The position numbers were made by a program, and so were the translations under genes. Below the pieces are notes generated by a model, which saw only the letters and a program-made list of their open reading frames with translations, was not told the origin of the DNA and did not search any database. From assembly GCA_026874595.1 (NCBI GenBank), contig CM049308.1:14837501-14901500 (forward strand): a stretch of 64,000 nucleotides of DNA, in the 5' to 3' direction. Origin of the DNA: Sipunculus nudus. Its lineage: Eukaryota; Annelida; Sipuncula; Golfingiida; Sipunculidae. The number at the start of each line of letters is the position of its first letter. The first letter of the stretch is position 1. This document shows, piece after piece, positions 3,337 through 50,372 of the stretch.

Positions 3337-3674
3337 GGTTATACTATGTAGTCGTTCCAGACATAATTTCGTGTAACCGCTGCTTTCTATGGCGAATTTC
3401 TCGCGACAGGGCCACCAGGGTGCGCACAGAGCAAGGCATAGTTATCAAACCACTGAGAGCGTGGTATTGCATTGTGCAAATAGCCCAAATTTTTAAACAT
3501 GCGACACCCACTTTCGTTGGTCTGATAACATCCGTTCCGATATTTTCAGGCCAAAAAAAAATCAGTGTTCCAATTACAATCCTTTGGTCTCTGCACACCC
3601 TGGTGTTCCTGCCCATAGAACTTTGCCATAGAAAGCAACAGTTACACGAAACGGGACGACTGCAGTGTATAACC
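3337..3674. mobile_element. Fold-back (hairpin) element with long inverted repeats
   Basis: The left arm begins GGTTATACTATGTAGTCGTT and runs through TTTCGTGTAACCGCTGC and CACCAGGGTG. The right arm carries the reverse complement of these blocks in the opposite order, ending GTATAACC. The arms are about 100 bases each, diverged, around a loop of about 130 bases. A fragment sharing AAACA[CT]GCGACACCC lies at 25.2 kb. Overlapping open frames on both strands reflect the inverted repeat, not a gene. Confidence 0.7.
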
Positions 3675-4923: not shown

Positions 4924-5682
4924 AGGAGATATAAAATAACAAAACGATACACCATATGTTGTTAGGAGATATAAAACAACAAAACGATACACCATATGTT
5001 GTTAGTAGATATAAAACAAAAAACGATACACCATATGTTGTTAGTAGATATAAAACAAAAAACGATACACCATATGTTGGTAGGAGATATAAAACAACAA
5101 AACGATACACCATATGTAGTTAGATGATATAAAACAACAAAACGATACACCATATGTACTTAGGAGATATAAAACAACAAAACGATACACCATATGTAGT
5201 TAGGAGATATAAAACAACAAAACGATACATCACATGTAGTAAGGAGTTATAAAACAACAAAACGATACACCACATGTAGTTAGGAGATATAAAACAACAA
5301 AACGATACACCATATGTAGTTAGGAGATATAAAACAACAAAACGATACACCATATGTTGTTAGGAGATATAAAACAACAAAACGATACACCATATGTAGT
5401 TAGGAGATAATAAACAACAAAACGATACACCATATGTAGTTAGGAGATAAAAAACAACAAAACGATACACCATATGTAGTTAGAAGATATAAAACAACAA
5501 ACGATACACCATATGTTGTTAGTAGATATAAAACAACAAAACGATACACCATATGTTGTTAGGAGATATAAAACAACAAAACGATACACCATATGTAGTT
5601 AGGAGATATAAAACAACAAAACGATACACCATATGTATAGTTAGGAGATAAAAAACAACAAAACGATACACCATATGTTGTT
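4924..5682. repeat. Satellite of nineteen 40-bp units
   Basis: Unit about GGAGATATAAAACAACAAAA followed by CGATACACCATATGTAGTTA. The copies differ mainly at a TTG/TAG position after CATATG, at GGAGAT versus GTAGAT, and by occasional one-base indels. Adjacent copies abut with no unique spacers. Because 40 is not a multiple of three, the repeated frames on the minus strand drift and are not a gene. Confidence 0.97.
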
Positions 5683-5974
5683 ATCATATAAAGACTTGAC
5701 CTATAAACCGATACCAATGCAAACCTTACTCTGATACAATTGTAATGTCTTCTCGTGGAGACTAATAATACTAGACATATCTTGTCTTGTCAGATTATAC
5801 GCCATTAACACAAGGATACCCGAGCAGATAAGAACCAAAATAAAAAAAAGGTGTACGATTTCGCAAAACTGAAAAATGTATAAAAACATGGAAATGATGC
5901 AGTGGTACGTAATATTGTCATTTCATAAATTTCTGATCCTGTTGTAATGTAACCACTTCTTATAATTAACAAGA

Positions 5975-8906: not shown

Positions 8907-10190
8907 TCAAGTCAAGTCAAATGAAGTCAACTCAAGTCAACTCAAGTCAAGTCAAGTCAAGAAAAGAAAAGAAAAGAAAAGAAAAGAAAAGAAAAGTCAA
9001 GAAAAGAAAAGAAAAGAAAAGTCAAGAAAAGAAAAGAAAAGAAAAGACAAGACAATACAAGACAAGACAAGAAAAGACAAGAAAAGACAAGAAAAGAAAA
9101 GAAAAGACAAGAAAAGAAAAGAAAAGAAAAGAAAAGACAAGACAAGAAAGAAAAGACAAGACAAGACAAGACAAGAAAAGACAAGACAAGACAAGACAAG
9201 AAAAGACAAGAAAAGAAAAGACAAGACAAGAAAAGAAAAGAAAAGAAAAGACAAGACAAGAAAAGAAAAGACAAGAAAAGACAAGACAAGACAAGACGAG
9301 AAAAGTCAAGAAAAGACAAGACAAGACAAGAAAAGACAAGACAAGAAAAGACAAGAAAAGAAAAGAAAAGACAAGAAAAGAAAAGACAAGACAAGAAAAG
9401 AAAAGACAAGAAAAGACAAGACAAGACAAGACGAGAAAAGACAAGAAAAGAAAAGAAAAGAAAAGACAAGAAAAGAAAAGACAAGACAAGAAAAGAAAAG
9501 AAAAGAAAAGACAAGAAAAGAAAAGTCAAGACAATAAAAGAAAAGAAAAGACAAGAAAAGACAAGACAAGAAAAGACAAGACAAGACAAGAAAAGACAAG
9601 ACAAGACAAGTCAAGTCAAATCAAGGCAAGGCAAGGCAAGTCAAGTCAAGTCAGGTCAAGTCAAGTCAAGAAAAGAAAAGAAAAGAAAAGAAAAGAAAAG
9701 TCAAGTCAAGAAAGGAAAAGAAAAGAAAAGTCAAGAAAAGACAAGACAAGACAAGAAAAGACAAGACAAGAAAAGACAAGAAAAGACAAGAAAAGGCAAG
9801 ATAAGAAAAGACAAGAAAAGAAAAGACAAGACAAGAAAAGAAAAGAAAAGAAAAGACAAGACAAGAAAAGAAAAGACAAGAAAAGACAAGACAAGACAAG
9901 ACGAGAAAAGACAAGAAAAGAAAAGAAAAGAAAAGACAAGAAAAGAAAAGACAAGACAAGAAAAGAAAAGAAAAGAAAAGACAAGAAAAGAAAAGACAAG
10001 ACAATAAAAGAAAAGAAAAGACAAGAAAAGACAAGACAAGAAAAGACAAGAAAAGACAAGACAAGACAAGACTAGACAAGACAAGACAAGAAAAGACAAG
10101 AAAAGACAAGACAAAACAAGAAAAGACAAGACAAGACAAGAAGGGTGAAGTCAAGTCAAGTCAAGAAAAAAAAGAAAAGAAAAGAAAAGA
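8907..10190 (+). repeat. Pentanucleotide satellite (AAGAA/AAGAC/AAGTC)n, about 1.28 kb
   Basis: About 255 pentamers of the form AAGNN. AAGTC dominates at both ends and in a central island (about 9603-9670); AAGAA and AAGAC fill the rest. Rare variants mark higher-order duplication: ACGAG-containing blocks at 9296, 9431 and 9901, and ACAATAAAAG at 9531 and 10001. The latter two pairs give a constant offset of 470 bases. The 384-codon plus-strand frame rich in Lys, Arg and Glu is a by-product. Confidence 0.97.
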
Positions 10191-24785: not shown

Positions 24786-24878
24786 CTAAGTCTTCCGGCA
24801 TACGGAACATGAACAGGTCTTGGCTGATCCAAAGGAGAATTCTTGAAAGCCGTTCAAACAGCGCACACGGACTTTAAC
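24786..24878 (-). CDS. GPA2: Glycoprotein hormone alpha-2, last coding exon: C-terminal knot cysteines and stop
   Basis: The exon opens at 24878, directly after an acceptor reading TTTTTTTGTATTTCAG, in phase 0, which matches the donor of exon 2. It encodes residues 97-126 and ends with TAG at 24786. The peptide starts V-K-V-R-V-R-C, continues with S-F-G-S-A-K-T, and ends C-S-C-S-V-C-R-K-T. Cysteines 103, 118, 120 and 123 complete a set of ten in the mature chain. The C-x-C-x-x-C ending is the conserved C-terminus of GPA2. Total length is 126 residues, normal for the family. In all six sequence positions that could carry it, no Asn-X-Ser/Thr sequon is present anywhere in the protein. The 3' untranslated region runs below 24786, but its polyadenylation site could not be fixed. 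Confidence 0.93.
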   Translation of the reverse strand, partial: VKVRVRCLNGFQEFSFGSAKTCSCSVCRKT

Positions 24879-25211
24879 CTGAAATACAAAAAAAGATACT
24901 ATCAGTAAATGTATGTGTTATGATATGTGTTTATTAAAAAATTAACCTGTAATATGCATTTTACTTCACCAGGGGATTGCAATGTATATGTTTGCAATCG
25001 GACCCAGCAGGGATAGTATATGACCCTGGATCCACAGTCTAAATACAGTTCTTGATCCGGAAGCAGTGTAATCTGGGATACACTTCCGGATCAAAATGGA
25101 TCCGCGTACTTATATTTGACAGGAATACGATCAAATGCTGGCCCGTACTGGATCTCTTACTGCAGTCGTCCCAGATTATGTTGAACGCTGTTTTGTATAT
25201 CATGGTTCTCT

Positions 25212-25330
25212 GAGTTACACCACCAGGGTAAACAGAGAGCACAGAAACGTAATCAGACCAATTTCGCTTTGTGGAGATAACTCAAAATTTTAAACACGCG
25301 ACACCCGCATCTGTGCAGGTGGACTATTAG
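25212..25330 (+). mobile_element. Fragment of the fold-back element seen at 3.3 kb
   Basis: Shares ACACCACCAGGGT..., GTAATCAGACCA and AAATTTTAAACACGCGACACCC-like blocks (AAACACGCGACACCC) in the same order as 3418-3520, with many differences. It lies inside GPA2 intron 2, and only about a third of the element is recognisable. Confidence 0.5.
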
Positions 25331-25414
25331 CTCAAAGCTACGTTTCCACTTATTACGCGGTTCGGACACTTATATGTTCGCCGCACGGTGGCTGTGGCCT
25401 CGGTCCGGAACCAA

Positions 25415-25443
25415 CCCCCCCCCCCCCCCACACACACACACAC
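25415..25443. repeat. C15-(CA)8 tract
   Basis: Homopolymer C followed directly by CA dinucleotides, within GPA2 intron 2. Confidence 0.97.
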
Positions 25444-26418
25444 AAAACGACGTCCTTTTTTGAATGAGGACGGAGCTGTATACGGTGCCGGATTAGGAAT
25501 CGCACTAGCACAGTTGTGAAATCATGGTGTCAGTACAAATGGAAGCATTCCCTCTATTTAATCATATTTTAGTTCCGATTGTATCCGTGTCCGGATAAGT
25601 AGAAACGCAACTTAACCCTTTTTTGCAGACAGCAAATCAAAGTTAACACCTACAAGTTCGCGTGAACAAGCAATCACACGCAAGAGCTCAATAATTTGGC
25701 CACATGTCACTTTTTAAACTATCTGACAAATAACTAAAATAGAACGCGAAGAAACGTGCAGATGGTCACTGTTACAGTAAAAACGACCACATAGAGAAAA
25801 GTGTATTTACATCGAGGATCTATGTTTAAGGAAAGCAAGTTTCAAAGTTTTCTTTTGCGGATTAATTAAAATTCCCGTGATTAGAAAAGATGAACACCAA
25901 CACACGCGCAAGCACACACAACTCCCTGTTCCCTTTTTATTTACATTACGAAAAAATATAATTATATATATATATATAAATATATATATATTTATATATA
26001 TTTTCGCATGTTGATATACTATATAACTACATGACAGGTGACATTTTAACAGTATACCCATCAGCTGCTCAACGACCATACAGTCTACCTTACTGTACAG
26101 TTTACAAGAACACCTCAACATGTTTTTTTTATTGCATATGGCAGTGAACCAGGCAATACTTATATTCCAATCAGCTCGGATTTTGTAACTGGAAACTTTA
26201 ATACATTTATAATGGTGTTCTAAAACGGCTGCTTTTTCCATTAGACGGTCTTATCCTAGAAGTGAAAGTGTCAGTTTGATTTTGAACCAAAGATCCGTTT
26301 CGTAATATGGATTTACGTATGTGACTCGACTACTGCGCAAAAAGGCTCCCTTACTGCAAAGATTAAAGATTTTTTTAATGAAGAATTGAACATTGTTTAA
26401 GTATATGGGATCAAATTC

Positions 26419-26420
<2 letters not shown>

Positions 26421-26479
<59 letters not shown>

Positions 26480-26483
26480 TATT
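26421..26483. repeat. (AT)n microsatellite
   Basis: AT dinucleotides with one ACAT interruption. A shorter (TA)n cluster lies at about 25958-26002. Confidence 0.97.
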
Positions 26484-27959
26484 ATCCATGAAAATACAAT
26501 ATTTATGATTAAACTAATTCAAGGTAAATGAAAAAAATATGTTTGCAATATTTCGGTGAAGAAAAGAGGTTTCTGACAACCGAAAAGCAAGTGTAAGATG
26601 AATATTGTTTCCCTAATTGACCTAACCACCACAGCCCATATGCTCCACCCTTTTAACCTAATTATGAGGATGAGCCCCCTAAAACGCTCCTACACAGAAG
26701 GCTTATCATGCCCATGGTTGCGAGAGTTGTTTACAAGACAATAGTGACGTCAAAAAGGTCGATGACGCATGACGTCGCATTGACTTACGTCATTAGCTTA
26801 ATTGCTATATCTGTGTTCTCCAATGTTGAATATATAGCAGTCATTGTGAAGTGTCTTGCTATATTTTGGATTATTTGTCTCATACGAATAACGTGCCAAG
26901 TAAGACATTATAAACTATTTACTCGGTAGTCGGCGGAATGGCTCCTGTAACCTTCGGCCCAAAACGTTTTATACTGTCTGCATTGTATAAGAAATATCCC
27001 GGAAAACATGTCCACACGGGTACTCATACAGACTACACGCTTTCTGTTTGGAAGAAGCGCCCAAATTATGCAAATTTTGCGCTTGTCAGGTGATAGACTG
27101 TTTACTTTGCCAACGGTTATTTGACTGGTAGCTCGAACAAGCTCTGCTCATGATTATTCATTGAATGAATATGCAACTAATTTCACATAGAGTTCATGAA
27201 TAGGTCAATACCGATAAATCATATGGTATCGATCGACCGAAAATGAAAAGTAATATACGCCGTGTTGGCGATAGCGATCACATGGCATCTTCATGGGCCC
27301 TTTTCTCAAGGAAAAAAATCCAAAATTTTATCTGATTGAAACCATGGAAATGGTACAAACACTAATTACCATAGCCACTGATACAGGTTTTGGTCGTGTA
27401 CCTTTGCCACCACAGCTCTTAATAATTTACTTTCCCCTCCGCTTATTTGTACTCAGTATACGCCGTTTAATGAGTGTATGCAACGGTACCTAGTTTTCGG
27501 ATTACTTTTACATACTTGATTAAAAACATAATTTTCGGGTCATAGTAATTATTCTGGGAACCGCTCTGACAAGTTTTGCAATATCTGGACCAGAATCAAG
27601 GTGAAGTAAAACAAATCCAAATCTATTGTCTGTTATGACTCCTAACAATTGACCCATGGGTAATGAGGCTCAGCTGACAAGCATGAGATAACGGGCTAAT
27701 TTTTACAACTGTTGTCTAATTTAGAAATAAATGATTGCAAATGTTTTAAAATTTTTGATAAGGGCAGGAATATTTGTACGCATAAAGCAAAGTAATTGAT
27801 GGTTCAGGACAAAATAGTGATACTATGCATGACTGAACATTTGCTACTGGTTCAAACAGTAAAACTGATGTTTCTAGAACACATCTTGCAGAATATAGAT
27901 CACCAAGATCTCATTTAAGGTTTGCAAGGATTTTTTTTCAGCTGAGCTAAAGAGTACAT

Positions 27960-28950
27960 TCTTGGTCCAGTGGTTACGATTTGTGCCCTGCTTTCGTATC
28001 AAATTTTCAATTATTCTGGGCGTATTATAAGCCCCATGGCTCGGAACATATGGGCAAAAGAGACCTAATTTCAGGTTTCCAAGGAGACTTTTCACGGACC
28101 TCGAAAGGATGTCAAGATAGAAGATTCTAGTTCCAGTGGGTATGAATAGTGCCCTTTTAATGGACGACTGCGTCTTTAAAGGTCTCAAAAATTGAGAAAA
28201 AATGCTTAAATATTCGAAAAAAATCCAGGTGGCGCCACCAGTCTGCAAGAACTGTTGAAACACTCCTTTATCAATATACATGCAAAGAATCATGGTGATC
28301 AATACATAAGTTATTTAGATATTGGAGGTTTTGTATCAATTTTTTTATGATCCTGGGCCCCAAAGCTCTGCGGATATGGGCAATTTCAGCTTTCAGAAGA
28401 GAACTTTTGAGGAACTCTTAGGATTCCAAGGTAGAAGATTCTAAGTCCAATGGTTATAATTTGTGCCCTGCTTTGGTATCAAATCTTCAATTATTCTCGG
28501 GGGTAATTTTAAGCCCCATAGCTCGGGGAATATGGACAACAGAGAACTAATTTCAGGTTTCTAAGTAGACATTTCATTTACCTCCCAGTATGTAAAGTTA
28601 GAAGATTCTAGGTCCAGTGGTTGCGAGATTTTAAAAGGTCTTAAAATAGAGAAAGAATGCTTAGAAATTCGAAAAAAAATCCAGGTGGTCAAACTAGTCT
28701 GCAGGAACTGATGAAACACTCCATGACCAATATGCATGCAAAGAATCATGGTGATCAATGCATTTCTTGTTCAGATACTGGAGCTTTTGTATCAATTTTT
28801 TTATTATCCTGGGGGTACCTCTAAGCACCATAGGTCTGAGGATATGGGTAACAGAGACCTAATTTCAGGTTTCCAAGGAGATTTTTCATGGACCTCTAAG
28901 ACTGCCCAGGGTTCATGATCCCAGCCTTTACGGTTACGATTTATGCCCTG
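27960..28950. repeat. Nested tandem repeat with a unit of about 455-475 bp
   Basis: GTGCCCTGCTT[TG]GTATCAAA, AATTTCAGGTTTCCAAGGAG, TCGAAAAAAATCCAGGTGG and AAGAATCATGGTGATCAAT each recur two or three times in the same order, offset by about 455-475 bases. Within a unit a shorter module (ATGGGCAACAG...TTTCAGGTTTC) is itself repeated. The array ends at about 28.95 kb in GGACGGCCGGACGAAAGGAC. It lies in GPA2 intron 2. Confidence 0.8.
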
Positions 28951-29554
28951 CTAACGGACGGCCGGACGAAAGGACGACGGACAGTAGCCCATCGCTATAG
29001 CTCGGCATGACTGAAAGTCAGCTAAGCTAATAAAACCGATATTTTGTATATCGGCTAATTTTTTATCACAATTCATCGTATGAAATCAACTACTAGACTT
29101 GCCTAGCTCATAAATAAAAATCTGATGTATTTTCATGCATTCCCAAATGCTTTCTAATTAGACCTTTCCTCTATATACCCCTGACAGGCATTCATTTGAA
29201 GACACTTTGAAGAATACCCCCATTAAATGTAATTAAATTTGGTCATATTTGGCATGAGTCACATAATATGTAAACAGAAGGTCGGTTTTTGTGCTTTTTT
29301 CCAAAGAGTCTTAAATTTTTCATTTCTTTAATTGCCTGATGGCTTTGTTTGATAGATTAAGTCGAGGCAGGGATAAAAAAATGATATCACCTTCATAATT
29401 ACCCTATCTGACACACCTGCTAAACTTGATCAAATTTCAACGACACTTAAAAAAAGAAACAAATTAAAACTGTAACAGTATAGTCTGGATAAAATGAAAT
29501 AAAAAAGCAATCTTTTTAATTTGCAAGAAAAATGTAAAAATAAACCTCGCTTAC

Positions 29555-29730
29555 CGTATGGGTCTCTGAAATACTGCAACATTCGGCATGTGACGTCACA
29601 ACATGGCGCGGGTTCATGCTAATGGTTTTACCCGACGATGGCACGGCGTATGATTCACAGTATCCCCGGCATGCGTTAGTCGTCACTCGAAATGCCACAC
29701 ATCCTGGGATCGTAACCGTTCTTGTGTGAC
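29555..29730 (-). CDS. GPA2: Glycoprotein hormone alpha-2, coding exon 2: core of the cystine knot
   Basis: This exon of 176 bases encodes the rest of Gly38 and residues 39-96. The acceptor is a long pyrimidine tract ending TTCTTCAG at 29731, and the donor is ACG|GTAAGC at 29554 (phase 0). Its protein carries the family signature: V-T-I-P-G-C, then T-T-N-A-C-R-G-Y-C-E-S-Y-A-V-P-S, then H-V-V-T-S-H-A-E-C-C-S-I-S-E-T. The cysteines fall at residues 48, 58, 62, 88 and 89. The N-A-C-R-G-[FY]-C-E-S and adjacent C-C motifs are characteristic of GPA2 and not of GPB5, bursicon or other cystine-knot proteins. The loop between Cys62 and Cys88 has the usual length. Codon use is more GC-rich than the surrounding intron. 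Confidence 0.95.
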
Positions 29731-30966
29731 CTGAAGAAAATAAAAAAAAAAATAGGGGAAACCTTCAAAGGAAAGCACTGAAAGAGCGCAGATATCCGCC
29801 AAAATATTTATGATATAAAAGATAACCTGACGGATAAAAATATTTTAATTCATTATGCCCATCCTTATTAAAAAAGAATCTGTACAATCTGTCAGTTACA
29901 TATTAAGGCATATTTTACACAAACAGATAGACATAATACAGACTAAAACATAATAATTTTACTGTAATTAGACAGCTGTGTCTCAAAGTGCTTTTGAGAT
30001 ATCTTGTGTATAAAAACACTCACACAGACAGACAGCCTAAACAGAAGGGGTGACCGCGTAGTCTTATCCAAAGTTTGTTCTTTAATGATATACTATTAAA
30101 TATGATCACAAAGACAAGTAAAGATATAGGTGCCAGTGCTTGATTTACTTATGTGCAGAACGTGCTGCAGCTCAGGGCCTCATAGTCAAGATAAAAATAA
30201 TCAAGGTTAATAAAAAAATATTTTATTTCAGTCTTAATGTAAAATCATTGGAGCAACTAGACCAAATTCTACCAAATTTAGGAACATTTTGCGGCAAGTG
30301 TTGGACGCTCTTGATTTAATAATATGTTCTATTTTATTTATTGGTAGTAAACAATACGTACAGTTATCAATTTACAGCGGCCCAGGTGGTTTACATTTAC
30401 TTTTAATTGTCATTGATCTTTTACTTTTATTATATAATAAAAAGGGCCAAGGATTTGTTTCTTATTATTAAGCTTTATTAAATTTTACTTTCAAAGATCA
30501 TCCTAGCAAAGTGCAGACAGTAGCATCAACCCTGCAACGAACTGGCTCAGTATAATCATCAGCCTGCAATATTTGATATTCCAATGTAAACCGACGTCCC
30601 ACATCTACACTTGTCTTTGGGTGAACCGAAAGCAACGACATTGGTTATAACTGATCTGTCTAATAAGACCACCGGTGAATTAAGACCACTATTGGCCAGT
30701 CCCACTGGTGGTCTTATAATGAAGGTTTCACTGTAATTGTATCGCATGGGGACAATGTCTTTTGGAAATTGTGTCGAGCATTGTCATAAAAAACTGCTAG
30801 TACAAAATAGACGGACCTTAATGATTAAACAAGAGGACAACGACGGACGAAGTAACATAACACGTCTTTCATCTTAAGTTATTTAAAGTATATTGTAGGG
30901 TTTTTAAAAAATCACACGTGTACATATCTATAGTATAAAACAGACGGTTAACATCTCTTACTGTAG

Positions 30967-31042
30967 GACAAGAAAATACATCGACAATTTTCAAATCGAG
31001 GAAAAGAAAATTCATCAAAGTCTAAGAGCTGATATCCATATG
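30967..31042 (+). other. Candidate 76-bp exon, opposite strand inside GPA2 intron 1
   Basis: Flanked by ATCTCTTACTGTAG and ATG|GTAAGTTT, both good plus-strand splice sites. One frame is open throughout and encodes a charged peptide (Y-I-D-N-F-Q-I-E-E-K-K-I-H-Q-S-L). No partner exon was found and the peptide is not recognised. It could be a nested gene or a chance match. Confidence 0.25.
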
Positions 31043-31640
31043 GTAAGTTTAATCTACACTACGTTACAACTCAAGTTGCATATTTGTAACTCTGTGACGT
31101 GAACAGAGTTAACACGGCACAAGTTGTATAATGTGATTGATGTCTAATAAAAACTGGAAATACCAAATTCGAAAGACAAATTTGTATGAGGCAAGAAGGG
31201 ATACCTTACATTTCTTTGATGATCTTATGCAGGATTAATTACCGCTGTTGGCGGAAGGAAGAACTTCTTTATATAAAATCCTTGTCAGAATTCTAAAAGA
31301 GGCGTGATAGTACATCAATAGTATTACAACGTAGCTCAGTCGCTCGGTTCTTTAATCACTGATATTGATTTTTTTTTATTAAAGTTTACACAGTTTACAG
31401 ATTAATACCTACGCTGATTTACCTATGACACGTAGACTAACCTATCCTAAACTAAAACGGGCTTCAGTATCTCATTGATTTATTCTAAGCACTAGATTCC
31501 TTCACAACTATTTCTTATTTATGAGGTAAGATTAAAACCTAAGAGTTTTATTAATTTATGCAGGAACGCCCTTGCGGGTGTTATCTTTTAACATCAATAT
31601 ATACTTTCATAACCGGTGTAAAGACTTGGGGTTTCCACCT

Positions 31641-32110
31641 TCCATTTCAGGTTACCGCCCCCCCCCCCCCCCCCCCACCCGTCAGCCTCAAACCGATTTC
31701 AGAATACCTCTTATGGTAGTCTGGACGTAAGTTATCGAACCCGCTCTGTTCAGATTACCCGCCCGTTGAGTTAACGTATTATAAATTTTTATGCCGCATG
31801 ATATATTAGTTCAATAAAACGCGTGAAAGATACGAGATTATAAAGCTGGAATCAATCTATGAAAATTAAAAATGTCGCAAAATGTTAATCATATTTTTAA
31901 TTATGTTTATATTTACTCCTACCCTTCACCAAAGCGTATGACACATAACATGTAAACAAAAGCTATACATAGATTCAGATTAATTTGGATAATCAAGAAG
32001 AAAGAAATATGAGTTTTAAGTATGGAATCAAAGACCGCTGTTTTAAAGGGGTAACCTGAAGTCGTGGGGGGTAATCTACAATTCTGATACGGGGGTAATC
32101 TGAAATCGCT
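31641..32110 (+). mobile_element. GGTAATCTGAAATCG element, copy 1
   Basis: The left side has CATTTCAGGTTACCGCCC, CGATTTCAGAATACC and TTCAGATTACCCGCCC. The right side has the inverse motifs GGGGTAACCTGAAGTCG, GGGGGTAATCTACA and GGGGTAATCTGAAATCG. The middle aligns with 58.3-58.6 kb (TATGAAAATTA, CTTCACCAAA, AATC(A/G)AGAAGAAAGAAAT). A C19 run interrupts the left end. Non-autonomous element with iterated inverted subterminal motifs. Confidence 0.65.
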
Positions 32111-35100
32111 ACATCTGGAGGTCAGCGGTTGTTTTCTACTACAACACCAGCAAGGTTTTTGGCTTCAGGTGGTTTAATGAATTGGGTTAAGACGGAAAAG
32201 GAAAATTAAAATCATTATTGGAATATTTTTCAATGCATATGTAGCATTTACGACTGAAACCATTCTAAATAATTACTTTTGATGAAAATAATGTTTACTT
32301 AGCGGGGTGCAATGAAGGACAAAACTTGTTGCACCTATATGTTGTCCGCATGTAAATGTATTTATTTGGTGGGCGTTATGTCGAATGTTATATGGTGTAT
32401 TATATTTATACGTTAAAAAATTCATCTATACTGAGAAAAATATTATAAAGTTAAAATTTTAGTTTGGGTTACTATCACGATCCAGGGTGTTATTTTAAAT
32501 AGATTTATGATGGACGCTTATCTTCGATATCTTATCTCCCCAACAACTTACCACACATCATATAATCCATCCAGTGACGTTACAGTTGACCCCCCGGCAT
32601 GACTGATGAAAATGTATAGGTGGGGGGTTTTAGTCTGATATTACCGACAATATCAGTCTCCTCTGACAAAAAGTCTCGTTCTGACATGGCGGTCAGAAAG
32701 AGACGCGAACCGAAAATAATGCGGTCAGAAGTCAAGCGCCCTGACCATTACGTCTCCACACTCCCGTTACTTGAACAACCGATACCACAAAATTTACAAG
32801 AACCTAAAGAGACGGGACGATTTTGCCAGTTCAATTTTTGTTTCTTGTTTTGCTTTTGAACAAATAGTGTGAGATAATGCGTATATTATAGCAAATTTAT
32901 ATACAATTTTAGAGTAACAGATCTTGCAATAACTCCTTCATTTAAAATATCAATAAAAACTTTTTATAAATAAATAATCTACCCCATATAGTATATATAA
33001 TATATAATTTTATACCTAGTTCACCGTCTTATATAGTATATGTAGCAATAAAATGTCGCTAGAATTTTTCATTTTATCTGAACGTTTGTGAGAATTATAA
33101 AAAAAAATTGAGCTGTCCTAGGTTCTTGGGAGTCAAATTATATTTAGCTCGTATTAATGCAACCATATAACGACTTCAGATAAAAACCCGAAAAACGTAA
33201 GTACTCCGGAAAATAAGAACTAATGTCTTTGAAATAAAGAGTGGAAAAAGAGTACAATTAGAGTCACTTCTCCAATTTTTATCACAGACCGAATAAGATT
33301 TGTTTTATATACCACAATTTGAGGATATATATCATTCCTGACGGCAGAAACATTCATGATGCACATCCCCTACATTCAAGATAAGGGCATTTTAACTGCA
33401 TGTTCTGACACATGCTCGAAATTCGGAGACAAAAAATTGTGTTATTTCCCATTCATGGTTTTACTAGACTGTTAAAGCAAGATAGAAATAGTATATATTG
33501 GATTTCTTTCACTGTGAAAGTGGGAAAACAGGAATGTTGCTGAAAAAACGAATGAAAACAGAATAAGTATTGTCATTTTCCGGAAATCCTCAAAAGAAGA
33601 GTGACTTTTTAAAGAGAGGGTATTGGCAGGCCTGGGCGTGACCACGGGAGGAGTAGAGTTCGAAGCGAGTTTGGTCCGGTCGCCGCCGGACACATAAAAA
33701 CCCCGTAATATAATGCTGACGTCGGATCCATTGGTAACTCAAAGCACTAATCAATATAAGATAAGCAGCAGGAAATGGCTGATTGGCTAAATTGGTTTTG
33801 GTATATGTTCCAGATTCAATCACAAGTGCGTGACAACAGTTAATCTTATCGACCCAACCGGATAGCTTTTGGGATCCAGGTAACTTGGTCAATAGATTAA
33901 GGTATCCATTAGGTCATAAAGTACGCGTGAAAGTGCTCATGTGTGACAGAATGGGTCGATATATTGGTGTCACAAGAGTTCATTAGTTGTCAATCCCGTT
34001 AAATATCAGAGCCGACGCAAATGCGAGAACGAAATGGTTTTGAATATTTTATGTAAGTTCATTTATATGTTAACATTAGGGTCAGATCATCTAAATAATC
34101 TTGGTGATTATAACATATGGTAGATCCGCGGCCCCCGTTAGTTCCCTGTTACGATACCCTAGAGGAACACCGACTTTAATAAATGATTGTATAGTAGGTG
34201 GACAGAACAGCGAATCGGAGTAGTTTGGTTAATGTTAAGGTACCATAGATGATGTTTAAGTGGTATTGCCCCTATATCCTTCTTGACTTAGTGATGGCGA
34301 AGCACTCAGCATGGTACATAATGGACTTTACGCTCACTTTAAAGTGTTGGTGATCAACATATCATTACTGTAAAATCACACTCTCTCACCGGGCATCAGT
34401 GTTCTGGAGAGAGTATTTGGGACGAGCTTACGACTTAAAAAATCAACTGGTTCCAGCCTTGTTAAATACCATGCGGGTGGCCTTGACCTTACAAGAATTA
34501 TCCAGGTCTTTATGGTAACCTCATTCTGAGTTATATTGGGCGACGATATAAAAGTCTCTTTCACGCTCTAGGTCCTTTTAAAGCTTTTAATAGGGACTCG
34601 GCCCTGTGTAAACAATTTGCAAATTGACCACACTGTCTCGTTTAAACCTAGCAGTTTATTTCAAATAAGCTCTTCTCGGTAGATATAATTATCGTAAAGA
34701 GTTAAGTAGTTCAGCAGACGGACTAAATGCGTGACACCCTCGGTTCTGTCTCTTTATTAATGTATTTATCAATACGGACGTTTGAAACCGATTCGGAACT
34801 GGGGACTCCAAATATACTGCACAACAAATGTGGTTAAAAGTCCCTTTACTGATCTACAGGGACAACTAAAGTACATGGATTTTGAAAGAATAGTAACTGG
34901 TCTTTGATTCGGGTTCCATGTTGAAATAATCGTAGAATTGCAAGGACTAATAATCTATAAGTAAATACATGTCATTACTTCTGGAATATCCCTTGCTATG
35001 TGAACATTTAAAATCTGTACTCCATAGAAGTCTGAATAAGGATATATATACCTATCATAGTATTCCTTTCATCCTCATTCAAAAGACAACAGTGCCACCT

Positions 35101-35209
35101 GTACACCCTGGATCAATGATTGCATATATACTTTATTAGGAATTTTATGATTTGATGTGAAGCTGTTGGTAAGATGACACCGAGTATCCGACACCATGCA
35201 TTTACCTTC

Positions 35210-35211
<2 letters not shown>

Positions 35212-35284
<73 letters not shown>

Positions 35285-35386
35285 CTGACGGTGGGAACCG
35301 ACTTTTCTGTGTATACCATTTCCATCTATAAACAATGAACCAGCATGGCTATTCCTACATCTCTCTCTCCCTCTCTCTCTCTTTAA

Positions 35387-35456
<70 letters not shown>

Positions 35457-35470
35457 ATATATATATAGGT
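35212..35470. repeat. Paired (TC)n-(TA)n microsatellites
   Basis: (TC)n at 35212-35269 runs into (TA)n to 35284. A second (TC)n at about 35361-35382 is followed by (TA)n at 35394-35468. The long minus-strand frame across this region is spurious. Confidence 0.95.
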
Positions 35471-38121
35471 AGTTAGCATATAGCTCATTAACGGCACAGA
35501 GTGTAAAATGCAAACATACCTAATAACTATGTGTCCACTTTCTCGAAACGTATTACAGTACATCTGCAGTATCATATCTATCGGAAACAAAAAAGGAAAT
35601 CTGAATATCCCCTTTGGCGAAAAGCTCAGTTAATGACGTCTCCAATGAAGAGAGATACTAAATTATGATAAACACACTTGAAAAGGCGACTTGTCAACAG
35701 ACAAGTGACATTATTTCAAATGTTGGCATGAATGCCCAAAGTAATAAGAAACTGCTCCCTGTAGATCGATCACCGTTAAATAAGGGACAGACTTAAAACC
35801 CTTGATATTGTGGTAAAAGGTCTCAAACTTCAACAAACCGTCCGCTTTATTATGGCAGTACGGCTCGGGCAATATATTGCAGGGTGCAACGATTTAGAAA
35901 ATTTACCTGTTAGCAAGAGTTCAATGGAGACAATGGAGCAGATGTTCAGATAATGTACAAGCAATGTACAAAAAAAGTAGGATATTAAAAAAAACTAAAT
36001 ATCAAATAAACTTGTTTATTCATCAGCCAAACCTATGTTCCGATGTGCGTTTTAATGTCAGTACAAGTAAATCTAGGATGAATGTACAGGTGGACCATTG
36101 TTTTGTCGGTAGCAGCTCTATTGTGTTGAGGTAACAGATCTCAAGTTTCTCAAGATGAATGAGATGAATGGAAATCAAAGCGAGATCATATTTAATAGAA
36201 AATAAGACGGTGAAGGCTGAACATATGAAACAGTTTAAACGAACCATATTATCTGTAACTGAAAACTGGCAACCTTTAAGATTTGTTTATTTTTATTATC
36301 ACATGGACATTAAGATGTCTTATTGATCCAACAAAGTTCACCAAACGCGAAACATTGTACGATTGTACGATTTCGACGTAACATCTTAGGTCGTTCTTTA
36401 TCTAATGCTCATTATCGCAAAAAGCTAATTTCATGAATTTGGATCAGATCTCGAGTATATATACACGTACCACATTTTCCTGACCCAAATACACAACTGC
36501 TAGCGATTAAATGGGAAAAACTAACCTTACTGATGCATTTAAATCGCCAGAATCCATTTCATACACAATATAGTTGCTTATTTATCCTCAGATGTACTCC
36601 TTGAACTTAATCCAAGTAAAAGAAGCACTTGGTGCGCGTCACAGCTAATTGATACTTTTTTTTTCTAAACTTAAACAGATTTGGTGCTTAAGCAACAGAG
36701 GGTCTGCTTTTGAATACACAAACGTCTTGTTGGACAGGTTTAATTGGAGAGGCTTTCTAACAGAGCTAGACTTGTCTGGCGATAGATCTAATACATATAA
36801 CCTGCCAAATAAGTTGCATACGAGACATTAGTCGGCCTCTCATATTAGTCGCTGGAGAAATTGAAAAGGTGTTTTTATCATACTTGTGCTTGGACGGACA
36901 CATCTATAGAAATGACGTGAGGGTGTTAAATTAACAGTAAATAGAGATTCTATTACACGGGCCCTAGGTTTAATTTCATCACACGAAGACACTCAGTTTT
37001 GTGATACCTGAGGAGATTTCATTTTTATTTATTCGGAACAGCAGCAGAATACTAAAAGAATAAACTCTGCAGTTTAAGGGGAAATTACCAATATGTAATA
37101 TGGCATTTGAAAAGCCTCTTACCTTTTTAATTTTCATATGAGGTAAGTCTGATTATCAGATCGATTCTTAGCTAGGCTGTGTACCTTTTATTCCATTGTT
37201 TCACACAGGAAGTAGGGATGAAGCGCGGCGACTGCTGAGTAAAGCCGGTTTTATCAGGAAGCTTCCATTTATTTGACAGGAATTGCAAACCATTCATGTG
37301 CCGATGTCTCGATTCCCTGGGAAGACATGACTTTTCGGTAGACTAAGGTTAAGTGCGGGTCGGCAAAAGTGAATAATGTAACAACCGAATGAACGAATGG
37401 TTACTTCCGTTATGGTTAAGGTCAAACCGGGATAAGAAAACGACCGTGGACTGCGATAAAATCTAAGTAATGGCTGCATCTTCCTGCGCAAGATCACACT
37501 CACCGCCTTCCGTCCAAGGTTTGTCACCTTGCCTGCTACATGCTGCGCTATAAAGCCTGTGTAGTATCGGATGCTGATGTTTAAAATGATGGGGTGCTGG
37601 AAGAACGTGTCTCGATAATACATGTTTCCCTGAATAGGGGGTTTTTTTTAAAAATTTTTCATGATGTTTTTAAGGTGTTTAATTTTAAGAATTTTATATT
37701 TTTTATAAATCCTGATTTAACATTTAATTTTAAAATGTTTAAGTTTAAAAACTGAATATCCTTTGGAAAGTTTTCGTTATATGAAAATTATTCTTGGATG
37801 ATAACTGTAGAAAAAATAATTTTTAAAATGATTTGTTGAGTGCCAACCTGATTTCCCGAAAACCATTGTTCTAAGAATTACTAAGATAAGTGGACGGTAA
37901 TGGAGGCGTTTTACAAACACCACTCTGCCTATTTCTTGACGGAAAGCAATAAAAAAATTTAAAAAATGTTAAAGGGGAGCTCTCCGCTTAGGCGTCTGAC
38001 TGCAGGTCTGTGCGTTTTGAAAGACCTTTTTTAGGACACGCGGATATATCGAGAAGTTATTAAAGTATTTGATTTCAAAGGCGACGGTTATCGGAGGAAA
38101 CTTTACATATTACTTTGCAAA

Positions 38122-38125
<4 letters not shown>

Positions 38126-38177
<52 letters not shown>
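38126..38177. repeat. (TA)n microsatellite
   Basis: About 26 TA units in GPA2 intron 1. Confidence 0.97.
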
Positions 38178-38179
<2 letters not shown>

Positions 38180-38924
38180 TTTTACTGATCTTTAAAGATT
38201 CACTGTAATATCTAATAAACAGACAATGGGTTATTTCCGGTCACAAAATACAAGAGTGATAATACGCACGTCGTAAAATGTCACACTCTGATGACCTTTG
38301 ACCTAATTAAATATGCAGCGATGTTTCTGAATATAAACTGAGATGAGATATCGTGGATGTTAATATTCATAGCAAGTTCATAGCAACAGTGGACACTGTG
38401 TCCATTTATAAATCCTTCTTCCTTTATATCCGGTAATCTTCAGCTTCATTTAGTAACCACTGACAACCTGAGATACATTCATTACCTTCGCGATTTTATA
38501 AGCGCTCTGGGTATCGCCTTAGGCTCTCGGGACAGGGTTTAACATTTTTAGGTCAGATAATGAGATTTATTGACCTAAGATGAATTTTTGTTGTTGTTGC
38601 CAAAATGTGTCATTATAAAAAGGTTATTGATGGGCTTGTGTTTTCTTAACGGGTTAATAGGATGTACATACTGACATTTTAAATAAAGGCATCTTTGTTT
38701 TCCAACATTATTTGGTATAATCAGTCTTTTCTGGATCACCTTTCAGCATGTTAATCCCCCTGTCGTTTTCGTATTTGGTATGAAGAATTTAGCGGGATAC
38801 TTCAGTAAAGAAGCGATCTGTGTGGAAGAAGTTTAACGTGTGTTCAGGTTGTGCAGAGCGAATGGACAGATGGAAATACAGTGATTAAAGTTAATCAAAC
38901 AACTAGAAAAGAACTTGGAGACCG

Positions 38925-39156
38925 CATACTCCCGCCAAGGCAACTCATCACCTCCATATGGCATTATCAGAAATGCAAATTCCTGGATCCTTATGGTGAT
39001 CCGAATAACCCCCAAAAATTTAATCAATTGTTCCTTGTCAGAGCTTTCTTGAAAATTTCATAAAAATCGTATATAACTTTTGAGGAATGCTGCATACAGA
39101 CAAACAGACAAACAACGCCGACAAAAGCATAACTCACTCCCTTAGGCGGGGGTAAT
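38925..39156. mobile_element. Short element with TAC(C)CCCGCC inverted ends
   Basis: Left end TACTCCCGCCAAGGCAACTC and right end AGTCACTCCC-like ...CCTTAGGCGGGGGTA are inverted relative to each other. The right half carries TTGAAAATTTCATAAAAATC and ACAGACAAACAGACAAACAA then CGCCGAC, a layout common in molluscan dispersed repeats. Related sequence ends appear at 54.34-54.48 kb and 58.7-58.8 kb. Confidence 0.55.
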
Positions 39157-39894
39157 TACAGGAACTTTGACACATGGTGCTGAAATCAGAGCTGCTCTTG
39201 CGGAGAGACAAGACAAACAATTCTTCAAAATATGATATTTGAAGTATGAGGATCAATGAAAATGATGCAAGACAAATCATATCTCTCCTTTTATATGGTG
39301 ACATGTGAAGAAAAGTAAGTCGTATACTTACGAAACCCTCGATACATCGATATGGGGAGATCAAGCAATTAGCTGTTTCCTTTTACTAAACTTGATAAAT
39401 TTTATGATCTAAAAGGATCTTATCTTATTTTTGCAATACCTATTCTGTAGTCGGATACCGATTGTTTTAGGTGTAACCGTAACCTTCAATGCGTAACAGG
39501 TCGCCGGATATCTTTTACCTATGTGGATACCAATCATTTTTAAAGCTGAAGAGAGGTAGTCGGAGACTTTCGTAGAGTTTCAGTTTCTTTCTTATGTCCA
39601 AAAAACGCAGTTTACGTTGTTCTTCATCCAACACTTTCATTATCAGCTTTCGCTAGTTAAATCTATCCCGGTAGGTATTGTAGGCTTATAGAGATGACTG
39701 GGTCTATATCAATATTTGTATCAAATTTTTTTGTTGGTGGATTTTCTTAAGTCTCCCATTGATTTAAAAAAAGCTGACCTTTGCAAACAATATTCGTCAC
39801 AGGTGACAAATTTGCACCTGATACTTATTTTGACCTTGACCTAATTTCAAAGCACTTCCTGGCCGATTCCCCATCACCGCTCAGTTGCGTGCGT

Positions 39895-39939
39895 CGGGGG
39901 TGGGGGGTGGGGGGGGGGTGGGGGGGGGGGAGGGTGGGG
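39895..39939 (+). repeat. G-rich tract with quadruplex potential
   Basis: Five or more runs of at least four G separated by single T or A residues. In GPA2 intron 1, so the template strand for GPA2 transcription is the G-rich one. Confidence 0.9.
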
Positions 39940-41222
39940 CTTCCACTGTTCGATTACAAACGTCTTGTTGAGCTTAATGGACTGATACTCCAAACACTCA
40001 GTAATAGTAGCATTACTCTTTTGTTATTTGACGGTGTTAGATTATGCGAGATTATTCGAAAGAAAATGATTAATTCTCACGATATCTTATTACTGGCCGT
40101 GTAATTGTTTGGAGGATCGTGACAGGTTGTTCCACCTCCTCACGACCGGTTGTTTAATATCATTAATCTGCTCCGGTGTCACGGACCTGAGCTTAATTCA
40201 TTATTAATATTGACGGGACACTTCTTGTCTGTCATGAATACATGAATCTTATTATTAAACAAGCATGCGTGCATAACATATTAAAGAGATCATGCTTGAT
40301 TCGTTATTGGAAAGTATAAGTATGTGAAATGAACGTGGACACTACGTGATTATTAGATTGTGATACCTGTAGGCGTCATATTTTTAACTGAGAATAAAAT
40401 ATGGTTATGATATTATCACTGGATCTTTACTGTTAAAATGACCCGCAAATAAATTGATAGACCGATCTAATTTCTTGTTAATTTTGCACGCAATATACCT
40501 TAAACCGCCCACGTTGACCGATTTGTTTCAAGCTAGTGTCGAAAGTTCAGATGCGTGAATTAAGCATTTTTAGCAAAAAAATACCTTGAACAAAAAATCA
40601 TAGGATGAACCTAGGTTATTAAATGATAACTGTTTGTTCTCTTTCCTTTAAAAAAAAGAATAAAATGACAAGTATTAAACAGAAAAAAAGATGATTAATT
40701 ATCTTTTCTGTTTAACATACAAAAACGTAGTTGCTCTTTAGATATGTGACACTTGTTTTGTATAACAGTTACACAATTGTAGCCGACAATCGGACTAAGT
40801 CCAGGCCACCGTTACATGGCATGCATAACGTATTTGAGACAGTTCTAAACGTTTTAGTATTAATCCACGCTTTCCCAACTGGTTACACCAAAACCTGTAC
40901 AGTTCGAAGATTTTCTTATCCGCTAGAGGGTTTTACCATGTTCTGAATGTACTTGTGAACGATACTCAAGCTTGTTGTGTAAGTCTAAAACCTTCTCGAA
41001 AAAAAAGCCGAACAGTTCGGTGTGTGCAAGTTGTTTTTTGTTTCAGTGTGAGTGGACCGCCAAGGCCCCCTCCGCAATTCGAAAACTTTTTTGTGACTGT
41101 TTTTTTTTTAATCGTATTGATTTATCCGCCTTTAAAAAGGTGTTTAAACGGTTTGACTATTTGCATTAATGGGATGTAAATGATTTAAAGAACCCTTCCT
41201 TTCTTGGAAAATGACCACTTAC

Positions 41223-41334
41223 CCAATCTGTGACAGCCAGGCCGGTCCCATGCATTCTGTGCATTTACTATGGCGAGGCCCGTGCACAACCATAGCAACA
41301 AAGTCCTGATTACAACATAGCGCCAAAATCGCAT
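41223..41334 (-). CDS. GPA2: Glycoprotein hormone alpha-2 (thyrostimulin alpha), coding exon 1: start codon, signal peptide, first knot cysteine
   Basis: GPA2 is the alpha subunit of thyrostimulin, a secreted cystine-knot hormone that pairs with GPB5 and acts on an LGR-type receptor. This exon encodes residues 1-37 plus the first base of Gly38. The ATG at 41334 sits in AAAATGC with A at -3. Residues 7-25 are hydrophobic (V-V-I, T-L-L-L-W-L, G-L-A-I-V) and end in V-N-A, a good cleavage site after Ala25. The mature start then reads Q-N-A-W-D-R-P-G-C-H-R-L-G, matching the W..PGC..G start typical of invertebrate GPA2. The donor is G|GTAAGTGG at 41222 (phase 1), which completes a Gly codon with the GT that opens exon 2. 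An upstream stop and a strong acceptor at 41480 make this ATG the natural start. The identification is firm because all three exons agree. Confidence 0.9.
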
Positions 41335-42740: not shown

Positions 42741-43072
42741 GGCCAAAAGGTATGGTTCTCAGGCACCGTCTGCATCAATTATAAACCCCCGCATCAAAAA
42801 TTTTTATTTTGATTTTCAATAAAAACTTTCTAATTTTGAGCTGCTGCAGCTCCGGCATTTCTTTCAAGAAGATAAAACCATACAACTTCCTTTGTTTTGG
42901 AGTGCTTTTACTTATTTAGCAAAATAAAACTGTTATTTTCATACTTTTCCCTTATTATTTGATATTTTTGTCGAAACATACCAAAAAAATTAAAATAAAA
43001 AAAGCGCCCGCCCGCATTGATTTCTGAAAAAAAAGTGCCTGAGAACCAAACCTTTTTTTTTTTATTTTGGCC
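42741..43072 (-). mobile_element. Harbinger-like MITE, copy 2 (inverted)
   Basis: Reverse-complement relative of 2274-2614, about 80% identical by eye. Termini GGCCAAAAGGTATGGTTCTC and GAGAACCAAACC...TTTTGGCC, again with TTA on both flanks. The interior shares CTGCAGCT, TTTCAAGAAGATAAAA and GCCCGCATTGATTTCTGAAA. Confidence 0.8.
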
Positions 43073-43220
43073 TTAGTCTTCCTAGGATGGACTCCCTTTT
43101 CCTAAATCCTGGATCTGCCACTGCAGAATATACAGATTCAGAAAATATCGCGAGTTTATTGTATTTGCAATGGTCATACGGTTCACACAGGGGCGGGCTT
43201 ACCCTTTCCCGGCAGGGTCC

Positions 43221-49699: not shown

Positions 49700-49982
49700 T
49701 TACGGGGTCGCATAAAAGCGGACCGAACTGTCTCGCGAGTGAAGCTTGCTTTTCTAGCGAAGTGGTTGGTACCCGGACTTGTGCGCCACCGACATGGGTT
49801 AGAATCCCGGATCGGCCCAAATATTTACCCCTAAGCAATTTGTCTTCGTAACAAAAATGGAGGCTCGTCCGGGATGACGGCAAAACTTTAAACTCTGTAG
49901 CCCAGGGAATAAGCTCACCAAAGTGTGACTCCTGGGATAATTAGTCTTGTTCTGATAGCAGAACGCTCTTAAGAGGGGGTGT
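49700..49982 (+). repeat. tRNA-like tandem array, unit 1
   Basis: Unit of about 283 bases. TAGCGAAGTGG (49755) fits an A box and GGTTAGAATCC (49797) a B box with one change, spaced as in a tRNA. GGACCGA upstream can pair with TCGGCCC after the B box (six of seven pairs), with about 27 extra bases before the A box. The rest of the unit includes AATTTGTCTTCGTAACAAAA and GTGTGACTCCTGGGATAATT. Confidence 0.75.
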
Positions 49983-50258
49983 GTTACGGGTCGGCATAAA
50001 ATCGGACCGAACTGTCTCGCGAGTGCAGGTTGCTTTTCTAGCGAAGCGGTTCGAACGCCGGACACGTGCGCCACTGCCATGGGTTCAAATCCCAGATCGG
50101 CCTAGTATTTTCCCCTGAGCAATTTGTCTTCGTAACAAAATGGGGGCTCGTTCAACGTGACAGAAAACTTTGTGGCCCAGGGAATAAGCTCACAAAAGTG
50201 TGACTCCTGCGATAATTAGTCTTGTTATGTTAGCAGAACGCTCTAAAGAGGGGGTGTG
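49983..50258 (+). repeat. tRNA-like tandem array, unit 2
   Basis: Unit of about 276 bases, roughly 85% identical to unit 1. A box TAGCGAAGCGG at 50039 and a perfect B box GGTTCAAATCC at 50082, 43 bases apart as in real tRNAs. A D stem GCG/CGC can form, but the 7-base acceptor directly before the A box does not pair with the 3' end. Confidence 0.75.
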
Positions 50259-50372
50259 TTACGGTTTGAGATAAAAGTGGACCGAACTCTCTCGCTAGAG
50301 AAGCTTGCTTTGCTAGCGACTCCCGGATCGGTCCAGTTATTTCCCCCTCAACAATTTCTCTTCGTAACACAA
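50259..50372 (+). repeat. tRNA-like tandem array, unit 3 (truncated, internal deletion)
   Basis: Keeps GGACCGAACT and TCGGTCC, which are perfectly complementary over seven bases, but has lost the sequence between the A box and the B box. It ends within the CTTCGTAAC block. Confidence 0.75.

Follow-up and report, generated by a model that had tools for sequence, protein, structure and literature searches.

Gene structure in the window

The window, by which we mean the whole stretch of 64,000 nucleotides analysed here (C3:14837501-14901500), carries on its minus strand a gene of three coding exons, spanning C3:14862286-14878834, that we assign with a probability of about 0.97 to GPA2 (thyrostimulin alpha), apparently intact and the sole copy found in the genome. 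Thyrostimulin is an ancient animal hormone, of which GPA2 forms one half and GPB5 is the partner. Numbered from the first letter of the window, the parts of the gene are as follows.

41223..41334, minus strand: GPA2 coding exon 1, 112 bases; ATG, first mature cysteine (Cys34), end in phase 1
29731..41222, minus strand: intron 1, 11,492 bp, GT-AG, phase 1
29555..29730, minus strand: GPA2 coding exon 2, 176 bases; Cys48 to Cys89, including NACRGYCES and the CC pair
24879..29554, minus strand: intron 2, 4,676 bp, GT-AG, phase 0
24786..24878, minus strand: GPA2 coding exon 3, 93 bases; Cys103 to Cys123, CSCSVC end, stop TAG

The intron donors read GTAAGTGG and GTAAGCGA and the acceptor ends TTTTCTTCAG and GTATTTCAG, and the joined exons translate into 126 aa followed by TAG, with an in-frame TGA that begins 57 bases upstream of the ATG. 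At the N-terminus lies a hydrophobic stretch, read by eye as a putative signal peptide, that holds an extra cysteine (Cys17). The ten mature cysteines (34, 48, 58, 62, 88, 89, 103, 118, 120 and 123) follow the order CxGxC, adjacent CC and CxC, and occupy the same positions as in the GPA of the locust Schistocerca gregaria. A preliminary description of this DNA had placed the exons, with their lengths, phases, GT-AG introns and 126-residue product, correctly to the base, and the ten cysteine positions that it gave all agree with the joined frame. It had also anticipated that a scan for open reading frames would miss the gene, and none of the 21 frames of at least 100 aa in the window overlaps a GPA2 exon. 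Its picture of a gene hidden among repeats holds loosely: 5,753 of the 64,000 window bases are repeated, as measured by comparison with 183.5 kb of local DNA alone at E <= 1e-10, but not one GPA2 exon base is among them.

Ten of these 21 frames were compared with Pfam at E <= 0.1; two gave a single weak match each, below the cut-off, and the remaining eight matched nothing. The Pfam scan left aside the other 11: seven of these, one on the plus strand and six on the minus, are low-complexity frames that cover a pentanucleotide array at 8921-10154, and the last four are those at 3420 and 6374 on the plus strand and at 35075 and 43446 on the minus strand. No tRNA was found in the window by ARAGORN with the bacterial code, and no Rfam family reached its gathering score there.

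Recovery of the exons with outside sequences

Since the exons and splice sites had originally been picked by eye, we tested the GPA2 gene with outside sequences. Used as a tblastn query against 183.5 kb of unspliced DNA that includes the window, the printed S. gregaria GPA sequence (PMC3061863, Table 3) recovered exon 2 (E 6e-21), exon 3 (2e-4) and exon 1 (0.006) in protein order, with the next best match at E 3.8. Against the joined GPA2 protein, the same locust sequence aligns over 98 residues at 53% identity without a gap and spans both exon junctions (E 3e-44, BLAST, five reference rows). In addition, when part of chain A of the PDB entry 8enb was compared with 6,272 six-frame segments of the 183.5 kb, GPA2 exon 2 ranked first (E 7e-4, next 0.6), and in the reversed DNA, cut into 6,217 segments, nothing matched this part at E <= 1. 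As judged from sequence comparison, a chance origin of the exon set is excluded.

The assembly searched comprises 1.43 Gb in 153 contigs. A search of it with the GPA2 protein scored six candidates and gave four matches at E <= 1, namely the three exons (exon 1 at E 2.0e-19) and a frame on C13, which at E 0.143 is the nearest other locus; no second GPA2 copy is among these matches. When the whole genome was searched with two Pfam models, Cys_knot, with 14 candidates scored, and DAN, with 12, neither returned a GPA2 exon at E <= 0.001, because a single exon covers no more than a short part of the domain; the joined protein lies above the cut-offs of both models (DAN 6.4e-7, Cys_knot 2.2e-6). The five matches to DAN lie on C3 at 89.09 Mb, on C12, on C15, on C9 and in the C13 frame; the C3 locus is a gremlin gene (8b7h, Gremlin-1, E 1.1e-32). 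Of the two matches to Cys_knot, one is a GPB5 exon and the other a C5 frame that is presumably CCN-like.

The linked partner GPB5

A complete two-exon GPB5 gene lies on the plus strand of the same contig at C3:14775597-14778275, 59 kb to the left of the window and thus beyond the reach of the preliminary description.

C3:14775597 (ATG) to 14775821, plus strand: GPB5 exon 1, donor GTAGGTAT
C3:14778078 to 14778275 (stop end), plus strand: GPB5 exon 2, acceptor TTTCGTTTCAG

The intron is in phase 0 and the joined product has 140 residues with ten mature cysteines, the join having been chosen by eye from the pyrimidine tract among six possible ones, four of them open. An AATAAA begins 16 bases downstream of the stop. 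The protein matches Pfam Cys_knot at E 2.4e-9, and in its spliced form its best PDB match is chain B of 8enb (E 6.4e-5). In the six-frame test, part of chain B matched the GPB5 exon with E 0.088, close to the 0.29 of the reversed-DNA control, where it gave the sole match at E <= 1 for either 8enb part; the case for GPB5 therefore rests on its gene structure and on the Pfam and PDB evidence. A narrow motif pass for the first GPB5 exon returned GPA2 exon 2 only.

GPA2 and GPB5 stand on opposite strands, tail-to-tail, with 84 kb between their stop codons, a spacing that may go with the large genome. Linkage of the two genes is described as reported for most invertebrate genomes, and a conserved synteny of thyrostimulin, gremlin and sclerostin-domain genes is mentioned in the part of PMC4079206 at hand. 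Here GPA2, GPB5 and gremlin all lie on contig C3, gremlin at a distance of 74 Mb, a weak form of the reported linkage.

Family assignment

The preliminary description had named the gene GPA2 and had called for a search of the joined exons against animal GPA2 proteins. Among the five reference rows used for that search, the nearest is the locust GPA and not a member of another cystine-knot family. A partial shrimp GPA2 (sequence from PMC7212414, consulted in part) follows at 68% identity over 38 residues (E 9e-22), then the 8enb chain A part (E 2e-13) and, as a family-wide cross-match, the chain B part (E 0.002). GPA2 was thus compared with GPA2 in three rows, two of them partial. The locust Burs-beta row, the one bursicon row among the five, gave no match at E <= 10. 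The identity first proposed is borne out by the locust, shrimp and chain A matches.

In the PDB, the best match of the window protein is chain A of 8enb (E 3.4e-7), followed by lutropin beta (E 1.9e-4). We take 8enb to be the crystal structure of C. elegans GPA2/GPB5, with GPA2 as chain A; the depositor name of that chain is 'Bursicon'. The window GPA2 and its linked GPB5 accordingly find their best PDB counterparts within a single entry, as chain A and chain B respectively, and the match of GPB5 to chain B fits the assignment of its neighbour. A crystal structure of C. elegans GPA2/GPB5 is described in the consulted part of PMC10319355. Pfam DAN and Cys_knot are broad models that leave the subfamily undecided. 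A seven-row tree had very long branches, with none of its four inner branches starred, and is not used as evidence.

The fact that DAN is the top Pfam model for the window protein, together with the name of the best PDB chain, could be taken to mean that the gene encodes a bursicon subunit or a BMP antagonist (DAN, gremlin) and not GPA2. The C13 frame, which we take to be bursicon-like from its CMCC motif, adds to this, as it aligns with the window protein at 31% identity over 71 aa (E 1.3e-8 pairwise). The window protein was nearest to that frame among the proteins compared, before locust GPA (4.9e-6) and locust Burs-beta (1.6e-4), and in the PDB the frame matches a DAN protein best; its bursicon label is therefore provisional. 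What speaks for GPA2 is the cysteine pattern: the window protein has ten mature cysteines and an adjacent CC, whereas an extra cysteine precedes the pair in locust Burs-beta (CYCC) and in the C13 frame. The 53% identity to locust GPA likewise contrasts with the lack of any match to locust Burs-beta at E <= 10, and the genome holds a separate gremlin on C3 as well as bursicon-like frames on C9 and C13. GPA2 typically has ten cysteines according to the sections seen of PMC6586643 and PMC3224965, and the shrimp bursicon subunits have eleven in the corresponding section of PMC7212414. Membership of bursicon goes with eleven mature cysteines and CxCC, and the window protein has ten and CC only. After comparison with the same-genome relatives and the printed locust sequences, we rejected the bursicon, DAN and gremlin readings, which we regard as very improbable.

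The gene could also be imagined to be a GPA2 pseudogene, or a relic that is not expressed, as the introns are large and set amid many simple repeats, and neither AATAAA nor ATTAAA occurs within 570 bases of the GPA2 stop. We consider this more improbable still: the frame is free of stops and frameshifts, each of the ten cysteines is kept, both pairs of splice sites are canonical, the identity to an insect protein is 53%, and the linked partner GPB5 is intact.

N-glycosylation and proposed signalling

No N-x-S/T sequon is present in GPA2 (126 aa) or in GPB5. For protostomes, the part of PMC4341566 at hand gives one N-glycosylation site in GPA2 and none in GPB5, and at least one sequon is reported for vertebrate and protostome GPA2 in the passages available from PMC4341566 and PMC3896475, the latter of which also describes recombinant mosquito GPA2 as glycosylated. 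The locust GPA as printed in PMC3061863 is also free of sequons; the missing sequon is therefore better seen as variation within the family, and a sequon is no strict GPA2 criterion. We think it somewhat probable that neither thyrostimulin subunit receives N-linked sugar, the two being made from genes that have stayed tail-to-tail on one chromosome although 84 kb apart.

The GPA2 precursor would be secreted with removal of about 25 residues as its signal peptide, and would fold into a cystine knot with an eight-residue ring, formed by C58-x-G-x-C62 with C118-x-C120. By analogy with the family, GPA2 and GPB5 may then pair non-covalently; pairing without a covalent seat-belt is described in the consulted part of PMC3224965. 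The pair might signal through a type A leucine-rich-repeat GPCR of the LGR1/TSHR family and raise cAMP, and receptor cAMP signalling by both subunits is reported for C. elegans in the portion seen of PMC10319355. In mosquitoes, GPA2/GPB5 acts on hindgut ion transport (PMC3896475, in part), and the function of molluscan thyrostimulin is described as unknown in the excerpts of PMC4200219 and PMC5996578.

Significance and comparison with known systems

The GPA2/GPB5 pair is real but ordinary, because many invertebrates are already known to have such pairs, and we expect the find to hold no surprise for specialists. The record of the ancestral glycoprotein hormone gains one well-supported gene pair, and both subunit genes are placed together with gremlin on one chromosome in the Sipunculus nudus genome. 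In addition, the sequon-free subunits offer a small test of the need for N-glycans in thyrostimulin.

GPA2 is described in molluscs, arthropods, nematodes and others; for molluscs, the available parts of PMC4200219 and PMC5996578 also include Pinctada fucata. The closest counterpart is the GPA of S. gregaria, which in the printed record (PMC3061863) shares all ten cysteines, NACRG[FY]CES, the CC pair and the ungapped 98-residue alignment, whereas its signal region differs and its printed sequence stops at the last cysteine. The scallop Patinopecten yessoensis, compared by the description available from PMC5996578, likewise has ten conserved cysteines in GPA2, but nine in GPB5 against ten here. 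In the oyster Crassostrea gigas GPA2 is linked to GPB5 as well, the two genes lying in tandem, according to the section seen of PMC4200219. The GPA2 of Caenorhabditis elegans (GPA2/GPB5, GPLA-1/GPLB-1) is more distant, with 27% identity and gaps between Cys62 and Cys88. As far as the extract of PMC3896475 describes it, Aedes aegypti GPA2 resembles the present gene in that it encodes ten cysteines, is interrupted by a very long intron (14,378 bp) and has its partner on the opposite strand; it differs in that at least two exons are reported, as against three here, in that less than 9.9 kb separates the two genes, as against 84 kb between stops, and in that two N-glycosylation sites are predicted for the mosquito protein, as against none in the Sipunculus nudus subunit.

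Genes on the GPA2 chromosome

The gene for GPB5, the thyrostimulin beta partner of GPA2, is complete and lies outside the window, 59 kb to its left, on the same contig (CM049308.1, here C3). The same chromosome also carries a gremlin gene, likewise outside the window, so that gremlin, GPA2 and GPB5 are all found on C3.

C3:14775597-14778275, plus strand, GPB5, two exons (loci L006, L007 and L002)
C3:89087802-89088122, plus strand, gremlin gene (locus L019)

Repeats and candidate mobile elements

Tandem and inverted repeats were found in the window, and a further fragment elsewhere on the contig.

4924-5683, minisatellite, 40-bp unit, 19 copies, 94% matches
8959-10190, AAGAA-type pentanucleotide array, 1.2 kb
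49700-50319, tandem, 275-bp unit, 2.2 copies
2273-2601 and 42745-43073, roughly 330-bp element present twice in opposite orientations, copies 88% alike
about C3:14823441-14823605, plus strand, retroelement-like RNase H frame fragment with a stop (locus L011)

Seven long low-complexity frames (one plus, six minus) cross the pentanucleotide array and stay open because of it. Part of the 275-bp unit resembles a tRNA B box, and ARAGORN (bacterial code) detected no tRNA within the 64-kb window. The inverted pair is perhaps a mobile element. The L011 fragment, which surfaced as a chance match in the six-frame search, resembles a retroelement RNase H frame.
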